Of a stretch of 64,000 nt of DNA, positions 13,315 to 34,654 are shown one piece after another. The DNA lies in the NCBI GenBank assembly GCA_021234155.1, contig JAJEKV010000024.1, positions 17,073,030 to 17,137,029 on the forward strand. Reading direction: 5' to 3'. The position numbers and the translations under genes were made by a program. Positions within the stretch are counted from its first letter, which is position 1; each line of letters opens with the position of its first letter. This DNA comes from Isoetes taiwanensis. Lineage: Eukaryota; Streptophyta; Lycopodiopsida; Isoetales; Isoetaceae. Under the pieces are notes generated by a model, which worked only from the letters and a program-made list of their open reading frames with translations, ran no database searches and was not told the origin of the DNA.

Positions 13315-13346
13315 CATTAGGGCAGATTTGGGGTCTCAAAATGGCC
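13315..13346 (+). repeat. Left terminal inverted repeat of the large element
   Basis: 32 bases matching the reverse complement of 34623-34654 at 31 positions, including GATTTGGGGTCTCAAAATGG. The mismatch is A versus G at the tenth base. Confidence 0.85.
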
Positions 13347-13785
13347 TCCTATCAACCATTCCACGTCATATTTCCGCTCCTTTTTTCCCATGCCACCTAG
13401 GATACCAAACTCTCATAATTACAGGTTTGCTTGGAATATTCTCCCGGAATAAGGGGGATCGCATTATAGCATACCGGCAACTCATGACGGTGTCTCTTGG
13501 TTTGTCAGATACCAAGCATGCGCGTCACCGATACTTGTCTTGCGCTATTTTCATTTAGAGGCCATGGCCATACAAGCTTCCCGCCTTCTACATTTCAAAA
13601 TTTGAATGTGTAGGTTGAAGCTTTGTATCAGACTTTCATTTCGGCGCCGATTAGCCTTAAAAGTTAAATGTAGGGATCTTTACTTCATCCCAATACAGGC
13701 TTCCCGCCCCCCTACAATTCGAATTTTGAATTTGCTTAATGTATAAAAGCATGGATTGTAGGAGAATGGACTTTTCGATTTCCAT

Positions 13786-14001
13786 ATGCACATTGCAAAT
13801 TTCAAAAACGAGGTTAGTACGGATGTTCGGCTCACACGAAGCGAATTGTGCTGGGGCATACAAATTGTACACCTTCATTTCGCGACGTGCGATCCACGCA
13901 GTATGGAAGCTCCAAATGATGTGTGGATAAGGATCCAACTGACTCACGAATATGCTCCAGTCTTCAATCGCAAAAAAGGAGGTCTAAAAATAAGAACTTA
14001 G
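13786..14001 (+). CDS. Small hypothetical protein in the large element
   Basis: 71-aa ORF beginning MHIANFKNEVSTDV. TATAAAAG lies about 45 bases upstream (13741-13748), in the place expected for a core promoter. I recognise no family. An overlapping minus-strand frame of 96 codons (13657-13947) is an alternative. The plus strand is preferred because of the TATA box and because the next gene also reads plus. Confidence 0.35.
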   Translation: MHIANFKNEVSTDVRLTRSELCWGIQIVHLHFATCDPRSMEAPNDVWIRIQLTHEYAPVFNRKKGGLKIRT

Positions 14002-14296
14002 ACCTCGGCGTGTTGCGCCTTGCGTGCTCAAAAAGTGTTGACATCCGGCGGATGGCGGTTTATATCCATTGGATCCGTTGAGTGGCAAGAAACCGTCATT
14101 TCGGGACGTTTCAAGTTTAGTCCGATTTTTTGGTGACGGTAACTCTGGCCTCCTGGGATATTGTGAGAGATTGAGAGAGGATGAAGGCATTCAGATCGAA
14201 TACAGTTCCTTGAGATGAGCTGCTTTCGATTGTCACAAGAGAATTATAACTTAAACCAAAGAACTCTTTTTCTCTCGCTTCATTACTCCAATCAGA

Positions 14297-15418
14297 ATGA
14301 AGGAAAGGAATGACGGCTTGGGGAGGGAAACTTCTTTGAGATACGAAGTGGACAAGTCCAAATTGGTGATAGGGCAGCTGCAAAAAAAGATCCAAGAGCT
14401 CGAAAGAGCAAAGTTTGGGCTTCAATGTAGGTTAAAGAATTTGAAGAAAACACCCCTTGGCTTGCGAGAAAGGAAGAAGCACTTTCGACCGATAGAGGAA
14501 CTGAAGTTTGGATCAGGTGCATTCAGACGCAGGGTCACGGCCACAAGGTCCGTTTACAACACTAGCAAAGGCCAATTAAGATCCGGGAAAACTAGAAGCA
14601 ATCTTGGTTACGTAGTGAAGAACCTAGCGACAAACAGGGAGATAGTGGACATGATTTGTCAGCCCTACAACTCTTCTCTCAAGAAGATGGTATTGGAAAT
14701 GGTACTAGGAGAGATCTACAAGAAGCTAGAAGCGACAGATGTACAGACTGTTTGTGATGATGTAGGCATCAGTAGGCTTGGTTACCGTTCTCTATTCAAG
14801 CCATTCCACGAAGCGTTGAAAAGAATGGGCACAAAAAAAGTATTCGCTCCACGTCCACAAATTGTCGAGAATACAAGGGTTACTAGGACAAAGATGATGT
14901 ATGTCATATTAGGAGAGATGCACCACGTTGAATGTGCTGGTCCTGCCATAGCCATAAAAGATAAGAATGGCAAGGATTATTGTGATATAGTTGGAATGAA
15001 TGAACGCAATAATCTTTGGGTTGACCTGGTTACTCTCTTACAATTTCTTGTCAAATATTATGACTTAACAGTTGCAGAAACTAATGGTGAGATTGAAGTT
15101 TGCATAAAATTGGATGAAATGGAACTGACCAAGTTTGAGAAGTATGAAAGGGTATCCATTGTCATCATGAATAGAATTGAAAATGCAATTGCACATGCTA
15201 AATCAAAGAGCAACAAGAATATTAAAAAAGATGTAGAGGTGACGGACGAGGAGAAGAAGCGTGCCGAAAAATGGTTCTCATGTCAATCTGAAGATGACAC
15301 CTGGTGGTTAGGTCTCTTTAAAGTTCAGAAAGAAACCCACGAGGTATTGAAATGGGTGTTCAATCAAACTGACATCCCGAACGGAAAGTTGCTTGGCAAA
15401 ATTCTAGGGCCCTACTAG
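14297..15418 (+). CDS. 373-aa protein of unknown function, intact
   Basis: The longest intact frame of the large element. Residues about 15-60 are a charged, probably coiled-coil segment (IGQLQKKIQELERAK), followed by a basic stretch to about residue 100 (Arg/Lys-rich, which would suit nucleic-acid binding). Residues about 125-185 are helical (LEMVLGEIYKKLEATDVQTV, DDVGISRLGYRSLFKPF). The C-terminal half is acidic and basic mixed (KSNKNIKKDVEVTDEEKKRA) and ends GKILGPY. I do not recognise the family. It lacks the DDE, HUH, tyrosine recombinase or serine recombinase patterns I looked for. Two shared-stem hairpins follow its stop within 200 bases. The absence of introns and damage contrasts with the decayed genes at the right end. 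Confidence 0.7.
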   Translation: MKERNDGLGRETSLRYEVDKSKLVIGQLQKKIQELERAKFGLQCRLKNLKKTPLGLRERKKHFRPIEELKFGSGAFRRRVTATRSVYNTSKGQLRSGKTRSNLGYVVKNLATNREIVDMICQPYNSSLKKMVLEMVLGEIYKKLEATDVQTVCDDVGISRLGYRSLFKPFHEALKRMGTKKVFAPRPQIVENTRVTRTKMMYVILGEMHHVECAGPAIAIKDKNGKDYCDIVGMNERNNLWVDLVTLLQFLVKYYDLTVAETNGEIEVCIKLDEMELTKFEKYERVSIVIMNRIENAIAHAKSKSNKNIKKDVEVTDEEKKRAEKWFSCQSEDDTWWLGLFKVQKETHEVLKWVFNQTDIPNGKLLGKILGPY

Positions 15419-15483
15419 CATCGCAACAGTGGAGGTCTAAGAGACAAAGAATCAGTAAAGTATACTTGTAATGTGTAGCATGT

Positions 15484-15546
15484 TCACACGACGCGAAGTA
15501 CTTGCCTCCAACCTTGTTTGCACAATTGTAGCTTCGCGTCGTGTGA
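15484..15546. repeat. Shared-stem hairpin 1
   Basis: TCACACGACGCGAAG pairs with its reverse complement at 15532-15546 across a loop of about 33 bases. It lies 65 bases after the stop of the 373-aa gene and before the convergent coiled-coil gene, as a 3'-end or intergenic signal would. Confidence 0.9.
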
Positions 15547-15558
15547 CCTTATTTGTAT

Positions 15559-15618
15559 CATACGGCGCGAACAGTGGAGTTCGCTATTGCTTGCATTTAT
15601 GTGGCTTCGCGTCGTGTG
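15559..15618. repeat. Shared-stem hairpin 2 (slightly decayed)
   Basis: CATACGGCGCGAA (15559-15571) against TTCGCGTCGTGTG (15606-15618), with two substitutions in the left arm. It sits in tandem with hairpin 1 between two convergent genes, so there may be one hairpin per gene. Confidence 0.8.
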
Positions 15619-15702
15619 AAGCTTTACAAGATAATAATAAAAAAAGGTTACTTTTGATTAAAGTTGTGAAAAATGTTACATTGAAAAACAAAATACAACG
15701 AC

Positions 15703-16167
15703 TCATTGTTGCTCCAGTGCGAGCTCTTCTTCATTATCTTCATCATCATCATCAGCTCCGTCCTCGTCTTCATCTCTTCTCCTCAAGTGAGCAATCACCC
15801 TATCCAAACGTTCCTCCAATCTGTCCACCATCTCTTTGTACATGTCCCGCTCCTGTCCCAATAGCACAACATGTTCTTCTGCTTGAATTAGCAACCTCGT
15901 TGCCGTCATAACCACCTCAGTGCAGTTGTTGGGGCATCCCCTCCTGTCCAGCCTTCTATTCAACCGCCTGATTTGCCTCTCCTGGCTACGAAGCATGAGA
16001 AGGTTGAATTCATTCTCTTCTTCTTTCTGCTGAATCGTAACGGCATTTTCCTTTAGAAGATCATCTTGCTCCTTCAACCTCTTCATTAGAACACCCAACA
16101 CTATGTCAGAAGGGAGTTCTATCCTCTGGCGTTTTCCCTTATCAGCGGTTGAGGATGTGGAGGCCAT
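15703..16167 (-). CDS. Coiled-coil protein with a D-I-x-L-x-V-x-M-K-R motif
   Basis: About 154 aa starting MASTSSTADKGKRQ; an ATG three codons upstream (16176) is also possible. I prefer the inner one because the two related genes start MASSSS. The motif ELPSDIVLGVLMKRLKEQ near residue 20 is shared with the genes at 17680 and 29028 (ELPVDITLAVVMKRFKEI and close variants). The rest is predicted long helix with heptads, ending in an acidic tail (DEDGADDDDEDNEEE). A TATA-like box lies upstream on the same strand (TATAAATT, 16253-16260). Function unknown; an oligomerising or scaffold role is only inference from the coiled coil. Confidence 0.65.
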   Translation of the reverse strand: MASTSSTADKGKRQRIELPSDIVLGVLMKRLKEQDDLLKENAVTIQQKEEENEFNLLMLRSQERQIRRLNRRLDRRGCPNNCTEVVMTATRLLIQAEEHVVLLGQERDMYKEMVDRLEERLDRVIAHLRRRDEDEDGADDDDEDNEEELALEQQ

Positions 16168-16252
16168 AGATGACAAATGGGAGGGACGTTAAGATTATAG
16201 AAGTGAGGAGCAAAGACTCTAACCGGCGGAAGGAGCACAATGCAAGGACCTC

Positions 16253-16260
16253 AATTTATA
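16253..16260 (-). promoter_or_regulatory. TATA-like box for the 15703-16167 gene
   Basis: TATAAATT on the minus strand, about 86 bases upstream of the chosen start codon. Confidence 0.5.
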
Positions 16261-16395
16261 CATATTAGCGCTTGAACATATTAAACACAGTCGGCTGCTG
16301 TCGCACATGTTGAGTGGATTCTGTCGGTTGTTCGCTAGAACACATTAATGGTACTGTCCGCTGGAACACATTAATAACAATTCTAACTATACTGT

Positions 16396-16449
16396 ATCAC
16401 ACCACGCGAAATCTGCACACGCGCTTTAAAACGTTTCGCTTCGTGTGAT
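16396..16449. repeat. Shared-stem hairpin 3
   Basis: ATCACACCACGCGAAA pairs with TTTCGCTTCGTGTGAT with one mismatched position. The loop is 22 bases, the shortest of the set. It lies between the promoter of the 15703 gene and the 3' end of the 16598 gene. Confidence 0.85.
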
Positions 16450-16597
16450 TTGTCTTGTCATTCTCTCTACCCGGATATTGAAAATTAAAAATAGGAAACG
16501 TAATATTCGGCACATTTTTCAAAAACTTTTCCCATTGAGAAACAAAATAATTATAAACATTAAAAAAAAACGGGCCCCTCTAGGAGGAGCCCGATGC

Positions 16598-17020
16598 CTA
16601 TGATCGCCGGGCAAGCTCTTCCTGGAGGGCAGTGATAATCTTTTTCTGCTCCTCCAACATGATTGCCTGCCCCGCAACCACATTCTCATACTCTGCAACC
16701 TTATCTTCCCGCTCATCGAGTTGAGCTCGGGCAGCCTTGCCCGCTTCGATTGCGGCCCTAAGCCTCTCTTGGAGGTTAGATCTCGTGGCGCGCAATTCGC
16801 GGTCTATGGCAGCCTGCTGATTGTCGCGCACTAAAATCACCTCCCTATAGAAGGCGGCCTTGTCCTCTGCCGCAACCAGCTTGGCGACGTCTTCATCATT
16901 CTTTTTCTTTTCGGAAAAGGCCCGGATCCGTTCCTCCGCTTCAAAGACGAATGTTCTTAATTTCCTTGACCCGAACTTGAGACAAGATCTCGGCAGGGGA
17001 TGGAACTGAGCCGAGGCCAT
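16598..17020 (-). CDS. Coiled-coil protein, unknown function
   Basis: 140 aa starting MASAQFHPLPRSCLKFG. From about residue 25 onward it is continuous heptad-rich helix (EAEERIRAFSEKKK, then RSNLQERLRAAIEAGKAARA and EEQKKIITALQEELA). It lacks the D-I-x-L-x-V-x-M-K-R motif of its neighbours but has the same size, orientation and layout. TATATAAA lies upstream (17111-17118). The intact frame and clean start support a real gene. Confidence 0.6.
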   Translation of the reverse strand: MASAQFHPLPRSCLKFGSRKLRTFVFEAEERIRAFSEKKKNDEDVAKLVAAEDKAAFYREVILVRDNQQAAIDRELRATRSNLQERLRAAIEAGKAARAQLDEREDKVAEYENVVAGQAIMLEEQKKIITALQEELARRS

Positions 17021-17110
17021 TTAAAGTGATGGGAGAACAGGAGAGATGGCTGAGGGCGGATGTGGTAGAACAGGAGATGGCGGATAGGAGAAGACAAAGG
17101 CCTCCGACGT

Positions 17111-17118
17111 TTTATATA
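17111..17118 (-). promoter_or_regulatory. TATA box for the 16598-17020 gene
   Basis: TATATAAA on the minus strand, about 90 bases upstream of the ATG, the same spacing as for the neighbouring genes. Confidence 0.5.
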
Positions 17119-17525
17119 GAAACTAGAGATACGTTGGAATATACGGTTGCGAGTACCGATAAAGTTGTCTAATAATCCTACGAGGCGAAATTATAGCATG
17201 CAATCAGGCAACGGTAGCCTATGTTCGCATCATGGGATCCGTCATATCCTAGCCGTACTGTATGCAGGTCGTACAAAAGACAGTGTTATTGTGGCAGCGC
17301 ATGCCACGTCCTTGGCATGACGTTGTCATCCACATGCCACGTATGTGAGTAGACGTTGTCATCCACATGCCACGTGCTTTGAGTGCTGGCGCTTGCCAAA
17401 CCTAGATATGACTAATTCGCATTTACCTGCAAGTTATCACATAATCTAGCTAGATATTTGTGTTACATATAGTTTTCCATTAATAAATTAGGAAATTGTA
17501 CATACAACGAGGTGTACGTTATGGC

Positions 17526-17592
17526 GATCATACCACGCGAAATCCATTGATTGCTACCTAATTGCAAGCATGGCATTTCGCGTCGTGTGATC
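17526..17592. repeat. Shared-stem hairpin 4
   Basis: GATCATACCACGCGAAAT pairs with ATTTCGCGTCGTGTGATC with two mismatched positions. It lies about 90 bases after the stop of the 17680-18057 gene. Its loop is nearly the same as that of hairpin 7 (ATTGATTGCTA, then CTAATTGCAAGCA), because the two lie in duplicated segments. Confidence 0.9.
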
Positions 17593-17679: not shown

Positions 17680-18057
17680 CTAGGGATCTTCATGATCCTG
17701 TAGCTGATTTTGATGATCCTGTAGCAGAAGCCGTAAAGCTGCGTTCTCATCCTCCGCAGCTCGGAGCCTCTTCTCCCTATCTTTTAACGCCTGCAAAATA
17801 TTGTGGGCAGTTAAAACTGCCTCGGCCCTACGGCTATTGGCCTCTCGGTACCTGGTGAATGTTGCCGCGAGCTCAATGTCTCGCTCATGCAGCAGCCCCC
17901 TCGTGAATTCTAATCTGTCGATCGCCTCGATCCTCTCGGCGACGAGACGGTTGTTTTCGTTGTGAATCTCCTTGAATCTCTTCATCACCACTGCAAGGGT
18001 GATGTCCACGGGCAGCTCTGGGCGCGGTTGCTTGCTAGAGGAAGATGAAGATGCCAT
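17680..18057 (-). CDS. Coiled-coil protein, copy A of a duplicated gene
   Basis: 125 aa starting MASSSSSSKQPRPELPVDI. The ELPVDITLAVVMKRFKEI motif lies near residue 14, then a long coiled coil (RLVAERIEAIDRLEF, then DREKRLRAAEDENAALRLLL), then a short Gln/His tail ending HEDP. It is strongly similar to the gene at 29028-29450 along the whole length, and the similarity extends into the upstream TATA region and the downstream hairpin. The pair therefore arose by tandem duplication and was later separated by the 10.4-kb insertion. Function unknown. Confidence 0.7.
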   Translation of the reverse strand: MASSSSSSKQPRPELPVDITLAVVMKRFKEIHNENNRLVAERIEAIDRLEFTRGLLHERDIELAATFTRYREANSRRAEAVLTAHNILQALKDREKRLRAAEDENAALRLLLQDHQNQLQDHEDP

Positions 18058-18180: not shown

Positions 18181-18242
18181 TCACACGACGCGAAGGATGC
18201 CGTCGGTCAGGAAAATGGACCGTTACTTCTCGCGTCGTGTGA
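18181..18242. repeat. Shared-stem hairpin 5, upstream of copy A
   Basis: TCACACGACGCGAAG against CTTCTCGCGTCGTGTGA, near-perfect. It lies just upstream of the copy A TATA box rather than at a 3' end. The counterpart before copy B is hairpin 8. Confidence 0.85.
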
Positions 18243-18290: not shown

Positions 18291-18315
18291 TCACACGACG
18301 CGAAAGCTCGTGTGA
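18291..18315. repeat. Truncated shared-stem hairpin at the insertion edge
   Basis: TCACACGA (18291-18298) pairs with TCGTGTGA (18308-18315) around CGCGAAAGC. The left arm carries the full 14-base motif, so the right arm was shortened. The 10.4-kb insertion begins exactly here. Confidence 0.6.
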
Positions 18316-18470
18316 GTATGATTTATCTGCGTTTCAAGATTAGCAGATAAATTCGCTTCTTGAGGCTAGTTGAGGGAGTTCCCTTAGAGTATTTATAGCC
18401 TTTTCCAGCTCTTTCATTTTCATCAGCCGTCTTTGAGCCTCTCCCTTTGTGGTCGCCTATCCTACCCCCT
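18315..18470 (+). repeat. Start block of unit 1
   Basis: Direct repeat of 27784-27940, nearly identical over about 156 bases, containing the inverted repeat and the TATA-like box. A 21-bp tandem duplication follows at about 18501-18542. Confidence 0.85.
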
Positions 18471-21400
18471 CCCCTGCCCGTTAGTTTTATCTTAAATCCG
18501 TTCGAGCTAGTTTATTGATGTTCGAGCTAGTTTATTGATGTCTTTATGCGCTTCCCTCCATGGCGGTCTCTCTGCCTATAGAGTTCCGGCCGAGGGCTTA
18601 ATGGAGTTATGTCGTTTATTTTATCTCCAGCTATCTAGTTTCGGCCGAGGGGTTATTTCGTTTATTTTGTTTTATTGTGTTGCATGTTTTCTTCTCGGTT
18701 TTCTCTGTTGCTAGGTTAACCTCTGATGCCTTTTCGGATGAGAAGTCTGGAACTCAAGGGTTCGCTTGCTGGATAGGGCTAACCGTGCCAGGCTCTGTTG
18801 CTGGATGGGTTTCTCTGGGGTGTCATTTTGGATGTCTTCTGGATGGTTTCTAATGTTCTGGGCTGTGCTTGTGGCGTAGAGTTTAGAGTTTTGTAGCCAT
18901 TTGATGTTTTTCCAGACTGAATGCGTGTTGGATGGAGTATTAGATTGGGCCGTAAATTTCGCTTTTTTGGACCATGATTCGCTTCAGGGTTTTCCCCATT
19001 CAGTGTGCCTGCAGTAGTGATGCAGATTGGATGTTCTGGAATGTGTAGTTATTTACAGAAGCGGGTGCATGGCAGCCTATTTTGATTGTAGAGTTCGTGC
19101 TAGCATTTTTGGGCGGTTGATTTTCTCGGGCGTTCTGCACAGTTCGTGGCCATCATATGGTGCTACAGTTTTGGAAGCGAGAGTATGCTTGTCGCCGATG
19201 TATAGTAGGATTGCAGCTGGTTCTTGTTGTTGGTGAGTTTTTTCCCTTCCTTGTTGTGTAGATCTGGGTTCGACTGCGTTTCAGTCCTTAGAATTTCATG
19301 TGGGCACGGTCTGTGCACTGCAAGCCCACAATTTTAACGTGATGTTTGTAGAACCAGTATGCAGTGGCGTACGATCAGGGCATGTTCTTCCTAGGGAAGC
19401 ATCTTGACCACCTATTTGCCATGTGACTGCCTCCATTCAACCACAATTATGCTTTTATCTAAGAGATGCGTTGTTGCTTGCTACTTTGATACTTTAGTGC
19501 AGTTTTGATTTCCTTATTCTTGTTCTTCCGCTTGTGACCTATGACTTGTAAATTAGTTTTTTGTATTTTATGTTGGTAGACCCAAGTTTAAATCCTAGCT
19601 TTGCCAAATCTTGGCTTTGTCTTACTCTCCACTATGTCACCCTTTGGATTCAAATGGTAGCTCTGTCAAATTTTGGCTTTGTTTTGGTTTTCGACTATAT
19701 CGTTTAGGGTTCCCACTCTAGCTCTATTAAAGTTTTCTATATTTTTCTCATAGTTGTTGGTCAATAACATCTCTGTCAAACCCTCGCTTTGTTTGGACTC
19801 TGCTATCTTGTGTTCCAAGTTCAAATTTTAGCACTATGCAATTGCAATTACCTTTCTCGCTCTTGTGCAGTTACAAGTCCTTATTTTTTCTCATGATAGT
19901 TGGTCGAGGGCTCTTGTTTTCCTCAGTCATGGTAGTCCTAGATTAGCCATGGCCTTACGTCTAAAGCCTTTGAGAAACCGTGTTTCTTTGTGAACTTGGT
20001 GGAGAATGCCTGTTGTATTGTTTACGACTTATCTTGGAACTTCCTTGAAAGGCATAGGATTCGGATGCTATATATTTGAGCTCTGTTCTACTCATTTCTG
20101 AAGCTAATGCGAGGTGCACATGCAGAGGATCGCGATTCATAGTGCAGTGACAGGGATTTGACCGTTTGAAGGTATTGGTATTAAGGTTTCTGTTTGGAAG
20201 TTTACCTTTGTGTGATTCTACGCTTGACCTTCCAGTTTACTGCTGTGTATGCTAGCCACCCTTTACCAACTTTCTATAGTTCTTTCTTTGCCTAGTCATC
20301 TTGTGTTCTTGTTTTGACAGCTGGTCTCCCTCAAAATCATTTGCTTGTTGACAATATTCTGGTATTTTCTTACTACATTTTCTCTTATACAGCCATTTGG
20401 TGCAGCAACTAGCCTTTTGCATGATCTCTAGTTGTCTTGTAAGCTCCTATGTCTGGGTGATTCTATTCCTGCGCGATGTCTTGTGATGTAGTATTCATTG
20501 TATGTCTAAAGCCTTTGCGCCTGTTTTGCTTGTGGACTTGGTGGGTGGTTCCTTTGTATTTGTTGTACCATTTACTACTTAGATGGGTGATTCTCTACAA
20601 GTCGATCGTAGATGAGTCTAATCAATTATGGAGGTAAGTCTAATCAAATCTTGGAGCATCCTTTATTTCGTATATCAATTTTGGTTCTCACTTTGCGGAT
20701 TGCAAATCATGTATTAACAAGAGTGGATCTAACCGGTCTAACTGTAAACTTAGACGGTTGTTAAAGACTTTTCAACAGGTTATTTGATGGAGGTCGGAGG
20801 TCTTCATTATTTGGTCTTGATCATTCATTTGCCACTATACGCTACCAGACTGCCAGATAGTGGATATAGTTGCAGCATATAGGTGTTGCAGCTGAGGTGT
20901 TGCAGCTCTTAGTTCTATGGGTTAACGCAAGTCTTTACAAGTTCAGCCACTATACTAATCAATTGTCTGGATCTGTTACAGAAGCTTCTAAAAAGGTTTT
21001 AGGCGTTGAATCCGATGGTCTTGTTGTTGTTGGCAATTTAGATAACAATTGAAACGGTTGGACATCATATTGCTCATGAAATGATTGAACATCTTTCTAG
21101 CATTTAGATAACTATTAAAACAGTTGCACATCTTTCTAATTGCACATCTTTCTGCTCATGAAATGGTTGGAAATCTGTTTGCTCGTGAGTCCACGCAGGG
21201 GTATGACTTCTAAGTCCTTGGACAGCTTTAAGGAAGCTCGGTGCCATTTGGTGCCATTTTGTCGTGAACCAGTTTTTTGCTTTCTGGCTACCTTTATGGA
21301 CATCTTTATGGAAGCCCGGTCTATTGTCGTGAACCAGGTTTTGCCTTCTTGCTACCTTAAGACGTTGACAGTGGGACGCTGGAGAGTAGTTGGCAGTGTT

Positions 21401-22307
21401 TCTTGCTTTTGGCAATTTCATTTTCAGCATTTAAAGTTTTAGAGTAGTGCATTGTATATGTTCTTTCAAGAGCAGGGAGCATGCAGGACCCGAGTTGTAT
21501 TCAGTGTGTTTTCATGAAAGGACCCGAGTTGTATTCAGTGTGTTTTCATGAATTGTTAGTTGTGAAATGGCATATGTTCCTAGACATTAGGCTTGCTTGT
21601 GGATAAAAATTAATAAGCAACATACATTTTGGGGTGGTTTGGTCTCCTTGGTCAATTTTTGTCCTTTTCCTTAGGTCCATTCCAGGTTTTGCTTTTCTAG
21701 TCGATTCCTTTTCTTACATTTTAGTCTCTTTCTTAAATCTCCTTTAGGTTGTCATGTGAGTTATTTTAGTATTGCTCATTCAAGTCGTTTTCCAATTAAG
21801 TTAGGTCCTTGTCTTCAAATGTGCATCTTATTGCAACGTTACCATGTGCATCTTATTGCAATGTTAGTTGTTTTATTTTGCACCATGTTTGTGTAATTTT
21901 GGGGACTTTTTTACCCTTATAGGTGGCTTGCACCATAAGTTTATGTTTTTGTCTATGGGAGAACCGTCCCCAAGTTGAGCTTCCCTTCTTTGGTCACTTG
22001 GTCTACCCTTCTTTGGTCACTTGGTCTACCGCTTTCTATCATGGGTAGCTGCACCCAATTAGGACCATTTTATAGGCATACTAGATGTGGTCTAAGGTTA
22101 TGGCATTTTCTTGACCACGTTAAGAGCTGGTTCAAATTGCTACGTCGTATCGCCCACAAGTGTCCATATTGTAAGAGTGTGAAGTATGTGTATAGTAACA
22201 CAATTTACTGCATGTGTGTGGTCTTAATGGGCAGGGCAACAAGTTAGGGAGCCTATTTATTTTAGGTTGACAGGATTTTAACCCTTTTAATTCTCCACTC
22301 TAGTTGA
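18471..22307. other. T-rich non-coding body of unit 1
   Basis: No gene recognised. Short tandem duplications are present: a 35-bp unit containing GACCCGAGTTGTATTCAG twice (about 21485-21551), and a 23-bp unit containing TCTTTGGTCACTTGGTCTAC twice (about 21985-22030). Confidence 0.5.
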
Positions 22308-22312
22308 TCAAG

Positions 22313-22762
22313 TGTTAGCCCTTTGGGCTAAACATATGTATGAGTGGCATAGGCCACATGTATTTATCACATTGGACCACTTGATCTAGGGCCCAGATTT
22401 AGCCCACATATGTGGTAGGTGGCATAGGCCACATGTATTTGTCATATTGGACCCCACAATCTATGGCCCAGATTTAGCCTAGATCTGTGGACGGTGAGAT
22501 GTCAGTTAGGGTTAGGGTTTTGCTCTACTATTTAGAGAGAGCATTTCCTCTCATTGTTTAGGCTTTTGCTCACGTTTTGGAGCACCTCCTTTTGGAGCAT
22601 CAATATGATTCTGTTTTGTTCATTCTTTGCTTTGTTCTTGTTCTTGGAGTTTCTTCCCACCTTCTTTTGTTGATCCATGAGCATTTGTGGCAGCCTTGTG
22701 GCATCCGGCAGATCATGGATTTCTTTGCTGCAAGGTGATGCCAAGAACCCCAAACATCAACA
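22313..22762 (+). repeat. 5' LTR
   Basis: 450 bases, starting TGTTAGCCCTTTGGGC and ending CATCAACA. Target duplication TCAAG lies directly before it. Confidence 0.92.
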
Positions 22763-25700: not shown

Positions 25701-26092
25701 TGTTTCAACTCCTTGTTTCCACTTTTCAAGTTCAACACTTAGGACCTTTCGCCCCTTCAACAATGTTTCTTTCCAAATTTTTGTTCCACTCATTACAAGA
25801 CACTTTGATTGGCGCATGTATTCGGAGCTAAGTGGCAAGCTCTATGAGAAGTGGTGACAGCCTTCTCAACATTAGATTCGACTTCTATGGAATTAAAGGA
25901 GCTTGTGGCAAGCTCAAGAGAAGTGGTGACAGCCTTCTCAACCTCTCATGATTTTTGTACTTCATCGATATTGGCATTTTTGGGTCAAGACTTCGGCGAC
26001 ATTCTCATTATTTCCCCTCACTTTGGACACTGTTGTAAATGTTTAACCTGCTGTTATAAAGGTTCTACATAGTTTGGTGTGGTGGGGGGGAG

Positions 26093-26539
26093 TGTTAGCC
26101 CTTTGGGCTAAACATATGTATGAGTGGCATAGGCCACATGTATTTATCACATTGGACCACTTGATCTAGGGCCCAGATTTAGCCCACATATGTGGTAGGT
26201 GGCATAGGCCACATGTATTTGTCATATTGGACCCCACAATCTATGGCCCAGATTTAGCCTAGATCTGTGGACGGTGAGATGTCAGTTAGGGTTAGGGTTT
26301 TGCTCTACTATTTAGAGAGAGCATTTCCTCTCATTGTTTAGGCTTTTGCTCACGTTTTGGAGCACCTCCTTTTGGAGCATCAATATGATTCTGTTTTGTT
26401 CATTCTTTGCTTTGTTCTTGTTCTTGGAGTTTCTTCCCACCTTCTTTTGTTGATCCATGAGCATTTGTGGCAGCCTTGTGGCATCCGGCAGTCATGGACT
26501 GCTGCTGCAAGGTGATGCCAAGAACCCCAAACATCAACA
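26093..26539 (+). repeat. 3' LTR
   Basis: 447 bases, near-identical to the 5' LTR, preceded by a polypurine tract and followed by TCAAG. Confidence 0.92.
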
Positions 26540-26544
26540 TCAAG

Positions 26545-27133
26545 TAACCATTTTGGGATGGGAGTTGCTGTCTTTGGTTTTCACATCGTTTAGTTTGGTT
26601 GCACCGTAGCGATCTTGAAGCTTTGATAATTTGGTGTGGTATGCCCTTTTAAGGTTTATCAGTTCGTTCTTGTGTGATTCTCACGTTGGTTTGCAATGTT
26701 TTTAATTGTTAGTTCACTGCTTATTGACCTTTCCAGCTTGCTCGTCTGTTTCTTTGGGAGTTGATAGTTACACGCTTTATACAGGAGGCATCTTCATTTG
26801 GGTCAGTTTGTTGGGCTTTGGGGGAATGATTTGCATCTTGTCATGCATTTTTAGATGGTGTTTTATGACAGTTGGAGCTTCGTCTATGCGTCACATTTTA
26901 TTTTTGATACTATAGCCTAGCTTTTTCCAATATCTGCTAATGGTAATATGGTCCTTTAAGCTTACGTTGCTCGCATAGTATGTGGCTTTGTGCTTGTTAA
27001 TTACGAGTTGCGTCTATGTTCCCTCGTGCGGTTCTTGTGCCAATCTTGTGGTGGTTCATGTAAGATTGTTCAAACTAGTTGTCTTTTGAGCCTTATGTCC
27101 ACCTTTAGCATAGTCACATGCCTTCATCCCTTT
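26545..27133. other. Continuation of unit 1, non-coding
   Basis: T-rich sequence between the LTR element and the hAT-like MITE. No coding or RNA feature recognised. Confidence 0.5.
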
Positions 27134-27141
27134 GTAGAGTT

Positions 27142-27380
27142 CCCGGGGGATTCACCTTTATCACATGAGCATATGCCACCTGCGTGCTTAAGGTGAGAAG
27201 AAACACCCCTATATACGTACGCAAACGTGTTGGAAAAACACCCCTTCCATAGAGAAAATACACTAGAATGTCAGTAAGAGGGGGATTTAAACCCCTAGTA
27301 TACGTACGAAAACATCGAGAAAAAACCCCCTTCCATACACTCACTAGGTTTATACGGGTCTTCTGGGTGAATCCCCCGGG
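27142..27380. mobile_element. hAT-like MITE with perfect 15-bp TIRs and 8-bp target duplication
   Basis: CCCGGGGGATTCACC (27142-27156) and its exact reverse complement (27366-27380) bound a 239-bp non-coding element. GTAGAGTT flanks it on both sides (27134-27141 and 27381-27388). An 8-bp duplication is characteristic of the hAT superfamily. The interior holds two related AC-rich blocks, each with a TACGTACG core. Confidence 0.9.
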
Positions 27381-27783
27381 GTAGAGTTGTGTACATGTCA
27401 TATCATTTGAGTCCTTAACTCTTATACTTTTGTTTTTTAGAGTTTGTAATTGTTAGTCCACTTCTTGTTAGTCCTTTCAACTCACGCTTCCTATTTTTGC
27501 TCTAGAGTTGTTCCTTACATGCTTGACGTGAGAGGCATCTTTAGTTGGTGGCCCGTCGGGTTTTGTTACGTGAATTGCATTTGTAGTGCTCCGTTGGAGG
27601 GTCTCTTACAGTTATTTGCATGCTTGTGTTGGACCTTGTAGTTATGTAGTTATGCGGTTCGTCATTTTTTCGTTGCCTCTTTTCTTTTTAAGCGATGACA
27701 TGATACCCTTAGTCATTCGATTTCCTAATTTTCTGCCTCTTTTTTCAGCTTGGTTGTTTGGTTGAGTGCAACTAGGCTCTAGA

Positions 27784-28756
27784 AGTATGATTTATCTGCG
27801 TTTCAAGATTAGCAGATAAATCCGCTTCTTGAGGCTAGTTGAGGGAGTTCCCTTAGAGTATTTATAGCCTTTTCCAGCTCTTTCATTTTCATCAGCCGTC
27901 TTTGAGCCTCTCCCTTTGTGGTCGCCTATCCTACCCCCCTACCCCCTTCTCATTTAAGCTGTTTAGTCCTGCACTATTGAAGTTTCTTTTAGTCGATGTC
28001 TTAGTTTGCTCATGTTGATTGTTTTGTTGTTGTCTTCTTGATCTTGTTATGCTATCTTGCGCAACGGGTTTGGGGCTCTCATGCCAAGCAACGTGGTTGT
28101 GGCAAGTCTCAAGTCTTGAGTCTTGGGTTTTAAGTGGATGACAATGTTAATGGCTCCTGCGCTGTGGTGGTTGGCCCGCATGTGTTAAAGATGTGGTGGT
28201 CCTTGTGCCAAGATTGAGGTCCTCATGCCAGGTGTTTCATTTCCTCGTGCCAGGTGTTCTGTTGTTTTCTTTCTGCAGATGTGCTCGAGATGGATGTGGA
28301 TTTGGACTTGTGACTGTGTTGGTGTTCATAAAGATTCCTTGTGGGCCAAGCATTGGAGGATCGGCCCTCGTGCCAGTGGATGTTGGATTGGTGGTTTTTG
28401 CAGGTTACAGATCGAGATTTGTTAGCTTGGATGCACTTATTCCTCACTCTGGGTGTGGCCTCTTGTGCAAGGTTGAGGTCGTCGTTGCAAATGATGGAGA
28501 TGAAGGTTTACAAATCTTCATTGTAACTTTGTTGTTATCAATTATTATACAAATTTGTCTAATGGTAGCTGATTATTCCTGTACATCTGAAAAGGTTATT
28601 CTTGTACACCCAAAAAGGCTGGTGGGCATGAGGGTTTTTGTTGGAAGTATTTTAACATTATGTTGTATCTTTTTATTTGGTAATAAAGAGAAGGGCTCCT
28701 ATGGCTCATTCATTCATTCAGCTTGGTTGTTTGGTTGAGTGCAACTAGGCTCTAGA
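27784..28756 (+). mobile_element. Unit 2, short internally deleted copy
   Basis: Begins with the 156-base start block and ends with the 39-base end block. AATAAAG at about 28682 could act as a poly(A) signal. One plus-strand frame of 181 codons (28193-28738) crosses it but is low-complexity and hydrophobic with no recognisable domain, so I do not call it a gene. Confidence 0.5.
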
Positions 28757-28862
28757 ATAATTTTTATTGATAATTTCGGTGATACAATCTATACATAAGT
28801 AATTTTACTGATACATAACTAAAGATAGAACTTCTCATTGAAGCAAAATAGAACGGCATGGA

Positions 28863-28929
28863 GATCACACGACGCGAAATCCATTGATTGCTATCTAATT
28901 GCAAGCAAGGCATTTCGCGTCGTGTGATC
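28863..28929. repeat. Shared-stem hairpin 7
   Basis: GATCACACGACGCGAAAT pairs perfectly with ATTTCGCGTCGTGTGATC (18 bp). It stands about 100 bases after the stop of copy B, matching hairpin 4 after copy A. Confidence 0.93.
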
Positions 28930-29027: not shown

Positions 29028-29450
29028 CTAGGGATCTTCACGATCCTCTAGCTGATTTTCATCATCGTCTAGCTGATTTTCATGGTCCTGCAGCTGAAGC
29101 CGTAAGGCTGCGTTTTCATCCTCCGCAGCTCGGAGCTTCTTCTCCATATCTTCTAAGGCCTGCGAAATACTGTGAGCAGTTTCAACTGCCTCGGCCCTGC
29201 GGCTAGTCGCCTCTTGGTACATGGCGAATGTTTCCGCGAGCTCAATGTCTCGCTCATGCAGCAGCGCCCTCATGAAGGCTAATCTGTCGACCGCCTCCAT
29301 ATTCTCGGCGACGAGACGACTGTTTTCATCGTGGATCTCCTTGAATCTCTTCATCACCACTGCAAGGGTGATGTCCGCGGCGCGATTCCGGGCACTTTCG
29401 GGAGTGCTATCTTGGCGTGGTAAACTGCGAGAGGAAGATGAAGATGCCAT
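29028..29450 (-). CDS. Coiled-coil protein, copy B of the duplicated gene
   Basis: 140 aa from MASSSSSRSLPRQ. An upstream in-frame ATG would add 27 residues, but the copy A start and the position of the TATA box favour the inner one. It has the same DITLAVVMKRFKEI motif and coiled coil as copy A. The tail is expanded by repeats of a D-x-E-N-Q-L unit and ends REDP. The frame is intact. The flanks are duplicated too: TATA box and hairpin 8 upstream, hairpin 7 downstream, and an AATAATTTTTATT block on each side of the gene (28757 and 29764). Confidence 0.7.
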   Translation of the reverse strand: MASSSSSRSLPRQDSTPESARNRAADITLAVVMKRFKEIHDENSRLVAENMEAVDRLAFMRALLHERDIELAETFAMYQEATSRRAEAVETAHSISQALEDMEKKLRAAEDENAALRLQLQDHENQLDDDENQLEDREDP

Positions 29451-29538
29451 CGGAGGCGAGGAAGGTGGAAGGCGGAAGCCGGAAGTAAAGATGAGCGAAA
29501 GGCGGAAGGCGTCGGAGGTCAAAGTGGACATAGGTCTT

Positions 29539-29547
29539 CTATTTATA
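29539..29547 (-). promoter_or_regulatory. TATA box, copy B coiled-coil gene
   Basis: TATAAATAG on the minus strand about 90 bases upstream of the copy B start, in the same block as in copy A. Confidence 0.65.
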
Positions 29548-29571
29548 ACATAGATTTAAGTAGTAACCCGG

Positions 29572-29635
29572 TCCACACGGCCGAAGGATGCCGTCGGTCG
29601 AGGAAAATGGACCGTTGCTTCTCGCGTCGTATGAG
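29572..29635. repeat. Shared-stem hairpin 8 (decayed)
   Basis: CCACACGGCCGAAGG against CTTCTCGCGTCGTATG: recognisably the counterpart of hairpin 5 but with several arm substitutions, so pairing is weakened. Confidence 0.65.
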
Positions 29636-29851: not shown

Positions 29852-31590
29852 TCAAGCTTCATCGTCAATTTCATGCTCTTTCAATCCCCACCCGCCTTGA
29901 TCCAACAAGGCAATGACTTCCATGTTATCGACCCCGACTTCCAACCTTGGGTGAGTCAAGCCGCCAGCTAAAAATTTAACATATTGCTTTCGCCTTGAGA
30001 CCGGCTTGTTAGTCAAAATATTGTAACATAACATCCCATCCGAATTTCTATCACCCTTTAGGTGTTTGATGCCAATTGGGAATGGTTCCCGACATGCATA
30101 ATGCACGGATGTAATAGACAAACTCTGCACCTTTTGGACTGAAAGTTCTCAAAAGCGATTATCTCCCTATTAACGAATCTTGAGATATATCGTAACAATG
30201 TGGAGTCCTTCAATCTTTCCTGTCCCCCGCGTGCATGTCGGCAAGAAAAATCATCTAACAAATAAGAACCCTCAAGCTTATCTTCTTCACATTTCTCCTC
30301 TCTATGAGGCTTATCTTTGCCGATTGATTGACTGAAGGGCACACGCCAAACACAGATCCTATTGGCAGCTTTGCACGGAGACGCTGGAATTCTTCTTCCG
30401 TTGGTAGATTCGCCTCCTCTTGAGCAAATCGAGACTCCAGCCTCTCATAGGCTTCTTTAAGCTTTATAGCATTGCCGGTATAAGAAGACACTTCAAACAT
30501 CTCTTTGTCCAAATCCTCTTCAAAATCTAGGCCCAGATTTCCCCATTCGGCCAAGATACTGATAAGCTCGTCTTCCCTAGCACACATTCGTAACAAAGAC
30601 GGGTTCCTCAGTATATCACTTAGCAATAAGTATTCTTTGCCTTCCACTAAAATTGGCGTTATGTCAGACAACTTCTTTTCATCCTCATCCTCATCCTCAT
30701 CCTCATGGGTAAAAGCATGTTAGGGTGTACCACTTTTGGAACCTGCAAAAGTACATACACTAGGTACTTCAGAACTGGGTACTTTCTCATTTTTATTTTC
30801 ATCTAGTACAAAAGTCCAAAATAAAAGTCAAGGACGCATTAATAGTCAAAGCTAAGATAAAGATAATGCTACCGGAGAGCAAAATATATATAAAAGTTCT
30901 AAAATGTACCTTTTATTGAGATATTACACAGGTACCCAGTACCCAGTCTTGGGTACCTTTTTAGGTACTTTTTTGGTCACTAAATAATACTTTTTAAGGG
31001 ACACCCTAACATGCTTTTACCCTCATCCTCATCCTCATCCTCATCACCTTCAGAATCATCTTCCTCCTCTGGTTCACCCAAGGCCAGTGCATCGAAGATA
31101 AAACTCCTACATTCTTGCTCTTCTTCTTGTAGACGTCATAGTCAGCATCATCACACATAACTGACCCCCCCTGGCTTAAAGATTTCATTGTTTCCAGTGT
31201 ATCTTCGGTTTGGCCGAGCAGAATGCAATAACTAGCAAATGCAAACGGCAAAGAGAAATAAGTTACCTTCTTAAGTACAAGGACGCAGCCAGGAGGAGCC
31301 CGTTGCGCAGCATTCTTGAAAAACATCTTCGCTGTTTGCAAATGGGAAGCCGCTTCCTCTAGAGATGGTTTTGGAATCCACGAGCCAGGGACATCTGCAA
31401 AGGACGTGCGCTGAGACCAAGCGGTCCGGCTGAAAGCTAAAGCAACCTCGCGATAGCATCCAAGCTCGCTACTGTTTGCCATGATGTCCAACTCCTTGCA
31501 ATAGAACGGATAAATCGCAGTCGGCGCAACTTCCTCGTTGTCATGTGGGGCAGATGCATATCATTCCAGGAACTTCACATAACAATCCAT
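29852..31590 (-). pseudogene. Acidic helical protein gene broken by a MITE, frameshifts and a stop
   Basis: The reading runs from an ATG at 31590 (MDCYVKFLE), through a TGA at 31561-31563, then an open frame of about 150 codons (MANSSELGCYREVALAF, then SLEEAASHLQTAKMFFKNAA). A shift between about 31130 and 31180 moves it into a frame reading GEPEEEDDSEGDEDEDED. The acidic run is cut by the 316-bp MITE at 30707-31022, then resumes as DEDEDEDEKK and continues (ITPILVEGKEYLLLSDIL) with two more frame changes near 30335 and 30125, ending at 29852. I recognise no family; the N-terminal half is TPR-like in helix spacing only. Flanked by hairpins 8 and 9. It is clearly dead. Confidence 0.65.
30707..31022. 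mobile_element. 316-bp MITE inserted in a coding acidic repeat
   Basis: The ends are inverted repeats of about 25 bases starting GGGTAAAAGCATGTTAGG, with few mismatches. The interior is non-coding, rich in GGTAC and GTACC words. It lies inside a (TCATCC)n-like tract that encodes Asp/Glu, so the target duplication (TCAT at least) cannot be told from the repeat. A TIR starting GGG with no coding capacity fits a small class II element of unresolved superfamily. Confidence 0.85.
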
Positions 31591-31731
31591 GGCGAAGCAG
31601 ATGACGAAAGCAAGAAGATGTTTAGGAGCGGTAAGGCGCTGTCACTTCTGAACTCAAGTAGCTGTTGTCGATTATGAAAGGGGACACAGCTGTTGTGGGG
31701 AAATTTGTCCGTACATTTTAGGGTTAGGGTT

Positions 31732-31801
31732 GGATCACACGACGCGAAAACTACTATGTGCAAAAAAAAAAGCACAATGCTTTCTGCGCGTCGTGTGATC
31801 C
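31732..31801. repeat. Shared-stem hairpin 9
   Basis: GGATCACACGACGCG pairs perfectly with CGCGTCGTGTGATCC. The loop holds an A10 run and a second small inverted repeat (TGTGC with GCACA). It lies between the 5' end of the acidic gene and the 3' end of the histone-like gene. Confidence 0.92.
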
Positions 31802-31937
31802 TCACGGATAACATTAAAAAAAAAAAATATACAAAGTGCGAACCTAGGCTTCTAAGAAAGAAATGGACTAAGAGATTAAGCTTATAAAGCCATTACATTA
31901 AAGAATATTATACATATGAAAAAAACACAAAGGCACT

Positions 31938-32775
31938 TCATGACCTTTTTTCTGGGGGATCTTTCTTCTTGTTGTATTCAGCCATACAATTTTGACCATA
32001 GTACTCGGGATCCCTTATGCGTAAGACCAGGTGCATGTCCTTGGGCATGACAGTCACCCGCTTGGCATGTATTGCTGCAAGCTGCGAGTCCTCGAACAGG
32101 CCAGACACCAACCGCCCGGAAGCCATTTGAAGAGCATTTAAGGCAGTTGCTTGAATTATGAATGGTATGATGTATCGCACCACACTCTTGCGAGAATCTC
32201 TTTCACGAGCACGGCAAATGGGAGACGCGAAATGACCATCTCGGTGCTCTTGATACTTCTTAATCTCGCGGCTCACTTTAATACCGAGGGCTTAGTCTTA
32301 CGCTTCCGGCCACTACCCTCACCCACCCGGCATTTGCGGGGCTCGGCCGGGTTTGTTGCTTGGCGACTCTTCCGGCCGTCTCCTCACATTTCTGGTCGCC
32401 TTCCCCTTTACGGCGTTGGGCCTCCTCCTTTGATTTGAAGGTCTGGCGCATTCCACGGGAGGAGCGGGAGGAGGGAAGAGCAAGAAAGAAGAGGCGGCTG
32501 CCCAATAATTAATCGGCGTCATATTCTGCTTTCGCGGGTCTCTCACATTTTCATCCTCCTCCTTGAACCGGAGTGCACCTCCCTACTTACTCCCGAGCTT
32601 CTCCCACCGGCCATCATCTGCATTTCTTTTCCTGGATCTTACATTAGGCATGGTGGGAGGAGGAGAATCTCTATCGAGACTTGATTCAGGATGTGGATGA
32701 AGGAGGCGGACCAATGTAATCACCTGGCCTTACACCCCCTGGATGGATCCTTGCGGTTTGCTTAGTTCTTGCCAT
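31938..32775 (-). pseudogene. Histone H3-like gene with long N-terminal tail, broken
   Basis: The start reads MARTKQTAR (ATG at 32775), identical to the H3 N-terminus. It is followed by a Pro-, Arg- and Lys-rich tail (for example RRPEESPSNKPGRAPQMPGG) of about 150 residues, far longer than in H3. A histone fold follows: REIKKYQE, then [20 protein letters not shown] and [13 protein letters not shown], matching helices alpha-N, alpha-2 and alpha-3 of H3. The fold diverges most at alpha-1. A C-terminal extension ends PPEKRS. The tail holds frame changes and a stop (near 32690, 32595, 32300), so the gene is dead as read, but the fold frame is intact. Centromeric (CENP-A type) and viral H3 variants both show long tails and divergence; I cannot choose between them. 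Confidence 0.75.
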
Positions 32776-32794
32776 GGCTTCTCAGCGGATGGCG

Positions 32795-32801
32795 CTTTAT
32801 A
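32795..32801 (-). promoter_or_regulatory. TATA-like box for the H3-like gene
   Basis: TATAAAG on the minus strand, about 20 bases upstream of the ATG, closer than in the other genes of this element. Confidence 0.4.
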
Positions 32802-32975
32802 CTACGAACACTGACAAAAATAGACAACTGGCAAGAGAGTAAAAAATAGAAGTTAAAGTAAAATATGATGGTAACTTTTAAAAATAATTGTGCGGAACCC
32901 TAAAAATATCGGACAAAATAACGGAACCCTAAAAACATTGGACAAAAACACAAATAAAAACCGAGATTCAAAGCG

Positions 32976-33188
32976 CTAGGCGATAGACAATTTCTTGTTG
33001 ATCGCGAACTCACTAAACTTTACATTTCCCTCTTGCCTGTAACCAACCCTAATGCCATCAATGAAATAATGGAAGTCGTTAGCAATCTCCTCTGTCTCCA
33101 TTAGCACTCTTAGCTCTGATAATGGCCATTCGATTTCCATGGTGGCTGTATAAATGACTTCCTCCCCTCGCCATACTCGAATATCCAC
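32976..33188 (-). CDS. Small hypothetical protein, possibly partial
   Basis: About 70 codons with no ATG at the start: the frame opens after a stop at about 33204 and the first candidate start is GTG at 33188. The protein begins VDIRVWRGEEVIYTATMEIE and ends INKKLSIA. Alternating hydrophobic and charged segments suggest beta strands. I recognise no family. An ATG-initiated version would need an upstream exon or repair of a frameshift, so it may be a remnant. Confidence 0.3.
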   Translation of the reverse strand: MDIRVWRGEEVIYTATMEIEWPLSELRVLMETEEIANDFHYFIDGIRVGYRQEGNVKFSEFAINKKLSIA

Positions 33189-33263
33189 CGCGTCGAGTGT
33201 GTCTCATTTATGGTCCTCAAACGGCTCCCAAAAAGTTGTGCAGCCTCTCTTTTTCTGTTTCCT

Positions 33264-34364
33264 TCATTCTAGTTGACAATTAACGTATAAATATTGTTTT
33301 GGAAGAAAGTACCTGAACTTAAAGGAGGACTTAACTACTCGGCACTCTGTTAGTTGACCGGATGATTCGTGGAATCGAACATCCCAGGTCGGAACCAAAA
33401 ATAAGCCATCCACAAAATTGGCAGGGGGGAGAAAGCACGTATATGTCTTTGGAGCTTTTCGAACTTCCTGCGCCATCTGGAATATGTTAGCAAATACCTC
33501 AAACGGTGTGAAGATTTTGAAACTCATCCTCACGCCTCCGTTTTCAGACATTCCCGCTTGCACCTCGTCAGCCAGGTATTTCTTCATTGCAATTACATTG
33601 TTCTCATTAGTCTGTGGCTTACAAAGTTCACTTAAAGGGGGCAATTCAACCGGCCTCAAGCTCGGTTTCCTGACCTTTACATTATAATCATGTCTGTAAA
33701 ACCAGATGCCTATACCCCGCAAGGTCACGACATCCATACCTTGGAAAAGGACTATTCCGATGTCTATGTGATACACGACAAGTACACTACTAATACTTTC
33801 GGCCGGAATGACATCCACGACGTCTGATAAAAATAAACCTGCACAATAAATTTGTTTGTAAACACGTGTCAACGAAAGAAATGAAAAGATAAGGAGATCA
33901 CACGACGCGAAACCTACGCAGTTAAGTAGTTGACAGATAGCTTCGCGTCGTGTGATCCGATTAAGGTGGTTACCATTTGTGGGCAATTTTGGGAAGCTGT
34001 TTTTGGTGGAGATTAGCTCTTTGGCCATATCAGAAGGGGTATATGCATGTCGTATTGTTATACTTTCCACTTTCCGGCCGCTAGAATTCAACTTGAACTC
34101 TTTTATCCTACCTATCCAATGTGTCCGCACGTCTGATCACCTTTGTCGCTTAACTCTATGCTCGCCCCTCGTTGATGGCAGCATACTCACCCACGAACCT
34201 ATTGAGACAAAACCTCCCACTTCTTCACCTTGGGAGTTCTGTAAATGAGGCAAGAACACAGAAATTATAGGAGACATGGATTGCAGATGAGGAGTGAAGG
34301 CGGAGAGGATGCACGTAGAGGCGCCAGAGTGACAGTACAAAAGTTTGGCGCCAAAATTTGACAA
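33264..34364 (-). pseudogene. BAH-domain-like protein gene with one premature stop
   Basis: The frame from 34364 contains VGGFVSIGSWVSMLPSTRGE, then a TGA at 34137-34139, then in the same frame THWIGRIKEFKLNSSGRKVE, AYTPSDM, LFLSDVVDVIPAESISSVLV and IGIWFYRHDYNVKV. The order W-V-x-x-L-P, then W-I-G-R-I-K-E, then LFLSDVVDVIPAESI resembles BAH domains of plant chromatin readers of the EBS/SHL type, which bind methylated H3 tails. No PHD finger is seen. A phase-1 intron is possible (33839-33973, GTAACC to TGTGCAG). It is also open in frame, and it holds hairpin 10. The C-terminal 120 residues are not recognised. The start codon is uncertain. Confidence 0.55.
33896..33957. repeat. Shared-stem hairpin 10
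   Basis: GATCACACGACGCGAA pairs perfectly with TTCGCGTCGTGTGATC. Unlike the others it lies inside a gene, within the candidate intron of the BAH-like gene. Confidence 0.92.
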
Positions 34365-34622
34365 GGGAGTTGGTGACGCTGACAGTAGGCGGTCAAAGTC
34401 GCCATTATTTTGGGCGGCGAAGTGACTCCCGAAAAATATGGGCCATTAAAATGGTTGCAACAAAAGCGCAGGCATCCCCTATGAAAATACGCCATGTGGA
34501 TGCCAAGTAAGCCTGCTCATCCTTCTACCTGCCAACTAATACTGACTTTCGTAAAAAAGGCGCAAACCTGATTCAATTTGGTCGTGGCGAATCTGACGTG
34601 GAAATCTTTAACCCAAGATATG

Positions 34623-34654
34623 GGCCATTTTGAGACCCCAAATCCGCCCTAATG
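34623..34654 (-). repeat. Right terminal inverted repeat of the large element
   Basis: Reverse complement of 13315-13346 with one mismatch in 32 bases, ending at the outer edge in CCCTAATG. Confidence 0.85.

Follow-up and report, generated by a model that had tools for sequence, protein, structure and literature searches.

A possible DNA transposon in Isoetes taiwanensis, with an H3-like gene and a paired 14-base word of its own

Among described systems, those closest to the locus presented here are the VANDAL elements of Arabidopsis and certain fungal transposons of the hAT superfamily. In VANDALs, short words are concentrated in non-coding DNA, where VANC proteins bind them and strip silencing marks (PMC5735166, PMC10398659). 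The motifs of VANC21 lie in non-coding DNA, both upstream of genes and within introns; they are densely set, and most of them belong to the element's own DNA (PMC5735166). VANDALs themselves are described as Mutator-like elements without terminal inverted repeats (TIRs) (PMC13317346). The subject of this work is a stretch of 64,000 nucleotides of the Isoetes taiwanensis genome (contig JAJEKV010000024.1, positions 17,073,030 to 17,137,029; hereafter the window), which holds an element enclosed by TIRs, about 10.9 kb long without the insertions that later broke into it. We read it, with a probability of roughly 0.45, as a decayed TIR DNA transposon of unassigned superfamily, which would regulate specifically itself through its own 14-bp word, TCACACGACGCGAA.

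The locus recalls VANDAL and VANC in that a short word lies in non-coding DNA, upstream of genes and in introns, is concentrated in the element, and is accompanied by several open reading frames (ORFs). Restriction of a non-coding motif to its own element, as for VANC, holds here within the window, the length and orientation of the motif being unlike those of VANC motifs. Unlike VANDALs, the element has TIRs. A TIR DNA element with an H3-like gene has counterparts in Dothideomycete fungi: published accounts mention such hAT elements in Pseudocercospora fijiensis and Pyrenophora tritici-repentis, the latter with an extra ORF of unknown function, and give forms of 5.6 and 2.3 kb in one species and of 9.5-9.9 kb in another (PMC6710886, PMC3538342). 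The hAT transposase or domain and the 8-bp duplications reported there were not found here: the offset scan of the ends gave no 8-bp duplication, and the scanned ORFs and pieces had no Pfam match to a hAT transposase or dimerisation domain. The Pfam scans, here and below, took in ORFs and open stretches rather than all six frames; of 91 stretches that run for at least 50 amino acids (aa) without a stop, 20 were included.

Other named families compare in a similar way. Inverted ends that enclose whole genes or parts of genes are described for Pack-MULEs, which are Mutator-like elements (MULEs), and for other gene-carrying plant transposons (PMC1947982, PMC3538342). In contrast to Pack-MULEs, the gene set here has one common regulatory word, and no 8-11 bp duplication of the Mutator or VANDAL type was seen, even with one mismatch allowed; neither a MULE transposase nor a VANC domain came out of the Pfam scans, the presence of a VANC model in Pfam being unchecked. 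Ends of the CACTA type (CACTA or CACTG) are absent, since the ends start with CATTAGGGC, and so is the direct TTA/TAA duplication of PIF/Harbinger, TTA on the left and TAA on the right being inverted. Polintons too are multi-gene DNA elements with inverted ends; these ends are far longer than 32 bp, and the gene content includes capsid, ATPase, polymerase and integrase. The element is smaller than Polintons and Polinton-like viruses, for which 14-40 kb is given (PMC12220804), and the Pfam scans gave none of their hallmarks (major capsid, packaging ATPase, DNA polymerase B, integrase), although decayed genes could escape. Membership of hAT, Mutator, CACTA, PIF/Harbinger or Polinton is not assigned, because for each of them at least one of the features looked for is absent. 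A literature search for H3 encoded by transposons, or for a like unclassified TIR element, had no plant case among the matches listed, most subscription journals lying outside its coverage.

Bounds of the element and its paired word

The first-pass annotation had placed a 32-bp TIR, with 31 of 32 matches, at both ends of a 21-kb span. This was reproduced: the repeats enclose 21,340 bp, their alignment stretches to 39 columns at 92% identity, and no third copy appears in the window with the threshold lowered to 21 of 32 matches. Once a later insertion of 10.4 kb is subtracted, the net size is about 10,897 bp, a value that depends on insertion edges accurate to a few bases; the window alone supports well a bounded element of the size, about 10.9 kb, that had been proposed for it before later insertions.

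Evidence for our reading comes from the distribution of TCACACGACGCGAA. With up to three mismatches the word has 22 matches in 64 kb, where 2.03 are expected (standard deviation 1.21). All of them fall inside the element, between 13832 and 33955, and none in the 42.7 kb outside; the probability of such confinement is 3e-11 assuming independence, which the pairs and the duplicated copies violate. The word is set in 11 inverted pairs, with a start-to-start distance of 38-50 bp (44-50 bp in 10 of them); a script found 10 pairs, and the eleventh (29571/29621), the left arm of which is decayed, was added by hand. The word is common to unrelated genes on both strands. Four pairs are situated upstream of the TATA boxes of the coiled-coil genes G1-G4 and one upstream of the 373-aa ORF; another four are in 3' regions (15484, 15558, 17528 and 28865), one separates the H3-like gene from gene 5, and one is in a putative intron. 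An extra single arm, at 18291-18315, carries a tight 8-bp inverted repeat, TCACACGACGCGAAAGCTCGTGTGA, right at the edge of the later insertion.

Two other ways to account for the pairs were considered. The pair might be a mini-transposon, or some other copied unit, of 62 bp. Among nine pairs (two paralogous copies being dropped), the loops are 46% alike, no more than shuffled loops (45 ± 6%), while the arms are 88% alike, a figure that flatters our reading in that arms were selected by likeness to the word, so that the 22 matches against 2.03 are the fairer measure. Because the arms are alike and the loops at the level of shuffles, it is the word that appears to have been kept, and the copied unit was rejected. 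The pair might also be an RNA hairpin at 3' ends, as suggested by the first-pass annotation, which had counted about ten copies of one stem. The repeated stem stands, sharpened to 11 pairs, and the role in RNA is not well supported: an arm differs from its own partner by 1.56 mismatches and from other arms by 1.81 (permutation p 0.14), hence no co-variation, and copies are present upstream of promoters. Perfect copies could still have a hairpin role. Nor do the palindromes look viral in type, as had been thought from their position at 3' ends, since pairs also occur upstream of promoters and in the putative intron. Rfam gave no match at gathering score. Since the loops are at shuffle level and partner arms do not co-vary, TCACACGACGCGAA is likely to act as DNA, bound by a protein, more than as a hairpin in RNA, and the pattern is that of a word that would be held by selection, in an inverted arrangement suited to the binding of a dimer.

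Genes between the inverted repeats

In the two pieces of the element, eight ORFs reach at least 120 aa, against a mean of 0.54 and a maximum of 4 in shuffles; one of the eight, of 146 aa, is antisense to another, and one of 254 aa spans the putative intron. The longest, an intact ORF of 373 aa already picked out in the first-pass annotation, exceeds the maximum among 300 shuffles (246 aa), and has a TTTATA upstream, at 14059. The same reader had noticed TATA boxes about 90 bp upstream of three to four starts; indeed, TTTATA precedes the starts of G1, G2, G3 and G4 by 88, 91, 94 and 92 bp, at 16255, 17111, 18151 and 29542, respectively. For G4 the likely start is 29450, because the start of the 167-aa ORF, at 29531, adjoins the TATA at 29542. 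G3 and G4 are duplicates, with 88% identity of their coding DNA (88.1%). Several genes of the element are broken in a six-frame reading. Table 1 gives the positions.

One family alone passed its curated Pfam cut-off among the ORFs and pieces tested, namely histone. The core of the H3-like gene matches PF00125 (Histone) with an E value of 1.2e-15 and 58.3 bits for a cut-off of 26.4; in the PDB it finds H3 at 1.9e-12, H3 heading the best 60 of 174 matches, and in the protein collection 51 of 59 candidates have E values of at most 0.001. Judged by its sequence, the encoded core has the H3 histone fold, and the H3-like gene that had been proposed is upheld, as a degenerate gene. It is also divergent: the top match covers 77% of the query at 44% identity, and the next one 47% of it at 64%. 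The gene is probably a captured, diverged host histone.

None of the other proteins reached a family cut-off in Pfam, and the protein collection, against which only the 373-aa protein and gene 7 were run, gave no hit for either. At E values of at most 1, the 373-aa ORF matched in Pfam only ATG5_UblA (0.16) when whole, and ATG5_UblA (0.032) and FN3_7 (0.07) when taken in two parts, each below cut-off; 3,109 proteins of the collection share words with it, none at E of at most 1, and neither the PDB nor viral contigs gave a match. A possible likeness to RNase-H-like proteins from repeats of cnidarians and mosses was set aside. Matches of G4 to HAUS1 (8.8e-5) or ATG16 (0.0014) are below cut-offs and of the kind that coiled coils attract; so are the weaker models that match G1, G2 and G3, and a phage scaffold model on G2 (E 0.13) is far below its cut-off. 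For gene 7, 56 candidates in the protein collection gave none at E of at most 1, and the best PDB match is at 0.98. Pieces of gene 5 had weak Pfam matches below cut-off or none, and no PDB match, while Glyco_hydro_2_N, Imm43 and Cryptochrome_C, weak matches of open stretches, were discarded as below cut-off. A BAH-like gene, also proposed at first, has no Pfam family at E of at most 1. Single-sequence structure models were unusably poor, with a mean predicted local distance difference test score (pLDDT) of 38.8 for the 373-aa ORF and 34.3 for gene 7.

Above the outermost gene on the right side, at 34344-34355, stands the window's sole TTTGGCGCCAAA palindrome. We take this palindrome to be an E2F-type site. 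Two of the window's TTCCCGCC sites, at 13578 and 13701, are similarly placed near the left end, above the outermost gene there; looser TTSSCGSS sites are present elsewhere in the window too.

Table 1. Features of the element and of the insertions within it (positions in the window; bp, base pairs; LTR, long terminal repeat; MITE, miniature inverted-repeat transposable element)
Feature	Position	Strand	Remarks
Left TIR	13315..13346	+	32 bp; first letters CATTAGGGC; TA adjoins GGGC
Motif pair 1	13832..13892		arms with 1 and 2 mismatches; upstream of 373-aa ORF and of TTTATA at 14059
373-aa ORF	14297..15418	+	intact; no homologue found
Motif pair 2	15484..15546		perfect; between convergent 3' ends
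Motif pair 3	15558..15619		between convergent 3' ends
Coiled-coil gene G1	15703..16167	-	154 aa; N-terminal stretch common to G3 and G4
Motif pair 4	16397..16448		38 bp apart; upstream of G1 TATA (16255)
Coiled-coil gene G2	16598..17020	-	140 aa
Motif pair 5	17176..17237		degenerate, with three mismatches in each arm; upstream of G2 TATA (17111)
Motif pair 6	17528..17590		3' of G3
Coiled-coil gene G3	17680..18057	-	125 aa
Motif pair 7	18181..18242		upstream of G3 TATA (18151); additional single arm at 18291
Later insertion	18315..28757		edges accurate to a few bases; foreign to element
LTR retrotransposon-like element	22313..26539		nested in later insertion; LTR repeats 98.9%, TG..CA, TCAAG on both sides
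Motif pair 8	28865..28927		perfect; 3' of G4
Coiled-coil gene G4	29028..29450	-	paralogue of G3; likely start 29450
Motif pair 9	29571..29634		hand-added, with a decayed left arm; upstream of G4 TATA
Broken gene 5	29852..31482	-	acidic tract, frame changes, 316-bp MITE-like insert; no homologue (six-frame reading)
MITE-like insert	30707..31022		316 bp, 25-bp inverted ends (96%); inside gene 5; foreign to element
Motif pair 10	31735..31798		between 3' end of H3-like gene and 5' end of gene 5
H3-like gene	31938..32775	-	MARTKQTAR start at 32775; H3 core 31941-32276; long divergent tail, shifting frames
Gene 7	33264..34028	-	no homologue; open through putative GT..AG intron 33839-33973, read from the letters only
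Motif pair 11	33898..33955		perfect; within putative intron of gene 7
Right TIR	34623..34654	-	inverted match to left end

Readings of the locus

If the element is a decayed transposon with its own word, the inverted pairs, about 48 bp apart, would tie its genes together. Most likely, in our analysis, a dimeric protein encoded by the element would bind the paired words; by elimination alone, the candidates would be one of the coiled-coil proteins or the 373-aa protein. Once bound, this protein may activate the genes of the element, or release them from silencing, and leave all other genes alone, in the way that VANC acts on VANDAL, and the H3-like protein would perhaps be used to alter chromatin on the element. 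That the element was mobile is suggested by its anatomy at this one locus. Should other copies confirm this, it would be a further case in which a transposon targets its own chromatin by means of a DNA word private to it, in the manner of VANDAL and VANC, here in an element apparently unrelated to VANDAL and combined with an H3-like gene. It would offer a testable second system for the escape of mobile DNA from silencing, and a new family of large elements for annotation. A bolder version, in which the locus stands for a new superfamily of large eukaryotic DNA elements with genes of their own, among them an H3 variant set aside for the element and a family of coiled-coil proteins, and in which the paired 14-bp sites mark the element's DNA and keep chromatin open and genes coordinated, perhaps via an element-coded nucleosome variant, seems to us quite improbable.

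Several observations weigh against a transposon with its own word. The Pfam scans of ORFs and pieces turned up neither a transposase nor another mobility domain, and a regular-expression look through the frames for a second transposase-like motif gave nothing convincing. The alignment of the ends, from which target duplications had been hoped for, was run at this locus and yielded nothing convincing beyond TA, or an asymmetric ATTA: over 30 x 30 offsets round the two ends, with exact matching at lengths of 4-7 bp and a single mismatch allowed at 8-12 bp, the longest flank match is of 5 bp and situated away from the ends, and the flanking TTA and TAA make an inverted, not a direct, duplication. 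Without the outer 5 bp of the repeat, TA borders GGGC...GCCC on both sides, as would suit the TA duplication of Tc1/mariner-like elements; this is a weak point, since TA is short and palindromic. Purifying selection on G3 and G4 is barely indicated, the coding DNA (88.1%) being no better kept than the flanks (5' 88.8%, 3' 93.0%), with a ratio of non-synonymous to synonymous substitution (dN/dS) of 0.57. The likeness to VANDAL is one of logic only, as VANC motifs have 9 bases, share one orientation and lie in tandem repeats, whereas inverted pairs of 14 bases are found here. Of the 11 pairs, seven were folded as RNA: three fold much more strongly than their shuffles (z -5.3 to -10.2), the remaining four only weakly so (z -1.7 to -2.7). 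A point in favour comes from CpG: the two pieces of the element have ratios of observed to expected CpG of 0.92 and 0.89, compared with 0.49 in a Gypsy element, 0.42 in a long interspersed nuclear element (LINE) and 0.62 in the insert, as expected for DNA less exposed to methylation. This is a weak indication, because the left flank also reaches 0.85, and the insertion, in places, 1.1 and 0.95 (windows of 1 kb, 23-25 kb).

Three further accounts share some of this evidence. Since no transposase was found inside, the element might have been a non-autonomous carrier that packed host genes (H3, coiled-coil) and was moved by an outside transposase, the motif being a regulatory site of these genes; capture of H3 by hAT elements is documented in fungi (PMC6710886, PMC3538342). 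A word common to unrelated genes on both strands, and confined as we have seen, fits better with a unit that evolved together, which makes the carrier rather unlikely. One might also see a mere cluster of host genes, tandem coiled-coil genes with shared promoters, caught by chance between two copies of an unrelated repeat; this agrees with the duplication of G3 and G4 and with the absence of a target-site duplication. It sits badly with the placement of the inverted match, about 490 bp beyond the first motif pair at one end and 670 bp beyond the last at the other, with several broken genes, and with the lack of any recognised host family except H3, and we find it quite unlikely.

The integrated genome of an unknown virus, with the motif as its promoter or terminator signal, was one half of the alternative left by the first-pass annotation, a virus-like genome or a giant transposon. 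Compact genes, TATA boxes, a histone gene, inverted ends and the want of a transposase all speak for it, but compact TATA-driven genes fit a transposon too. The profile search of each ORF that had been advised left only the histone above its cut-off, with no viral or transposon family in those tested: integrase, polymerase, capsid, packaging and replication families, as well as the hallmarks of Nucleocytoviricota, gave nothing above cut-off in the stretches scanned, from which decayed genes could escape, and PHROGs had no match at E of at most 0.01 for six proteins. Four of the proteins or pieces had no relative in IMG/VR, where the scans detect only close ones; there was no exact match in viral contigs to a 20-base stretch of the terminal repeat, nor in viral contigs and a prokaryote genome collection to the perfect motif pair. 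The putative intron in gene 7 and the shortness of 32-bp ends agree poorly with a virus, and the motif, upstream of promoters and in that intron, is a poor fit to a viral 3'-end hairpin. Integration of a virus, which thus has no positive support from Pfam, PHROGs or IMG/VR, is in our view very unlikely, and the transposon half of the alternative is the likelier.

Later insertions and neighbouring repeats

The insertion that splits the element consists of two head-to-tail units, of 9.5 kb and 1 kb, whose heads (155 bp) are 99.4% alike and whose tails (41 bp) match at 100%. The head bears a short inverted repeat, ATTTATCTGC..GCAGATAAAT, and the arrangement is reminiscent of tandem rolling-circle elements. 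The MITE-like insert of gene 5 interrupts a TCATCC microsatellite that encodes the acidic tract. Outside the TIRs, the window contains a largely intact LINE (1568-5453), with endonuclease and reverse transcriptase in Pfam, and a Gypsy-type retrotransposon (36938-41540), also largely intact, with gag, protease, reverse transcriptase, RNase H and integrase (Pfam) in two main ORFs; their domains suggest a repeat-rich eukaryotic genome.

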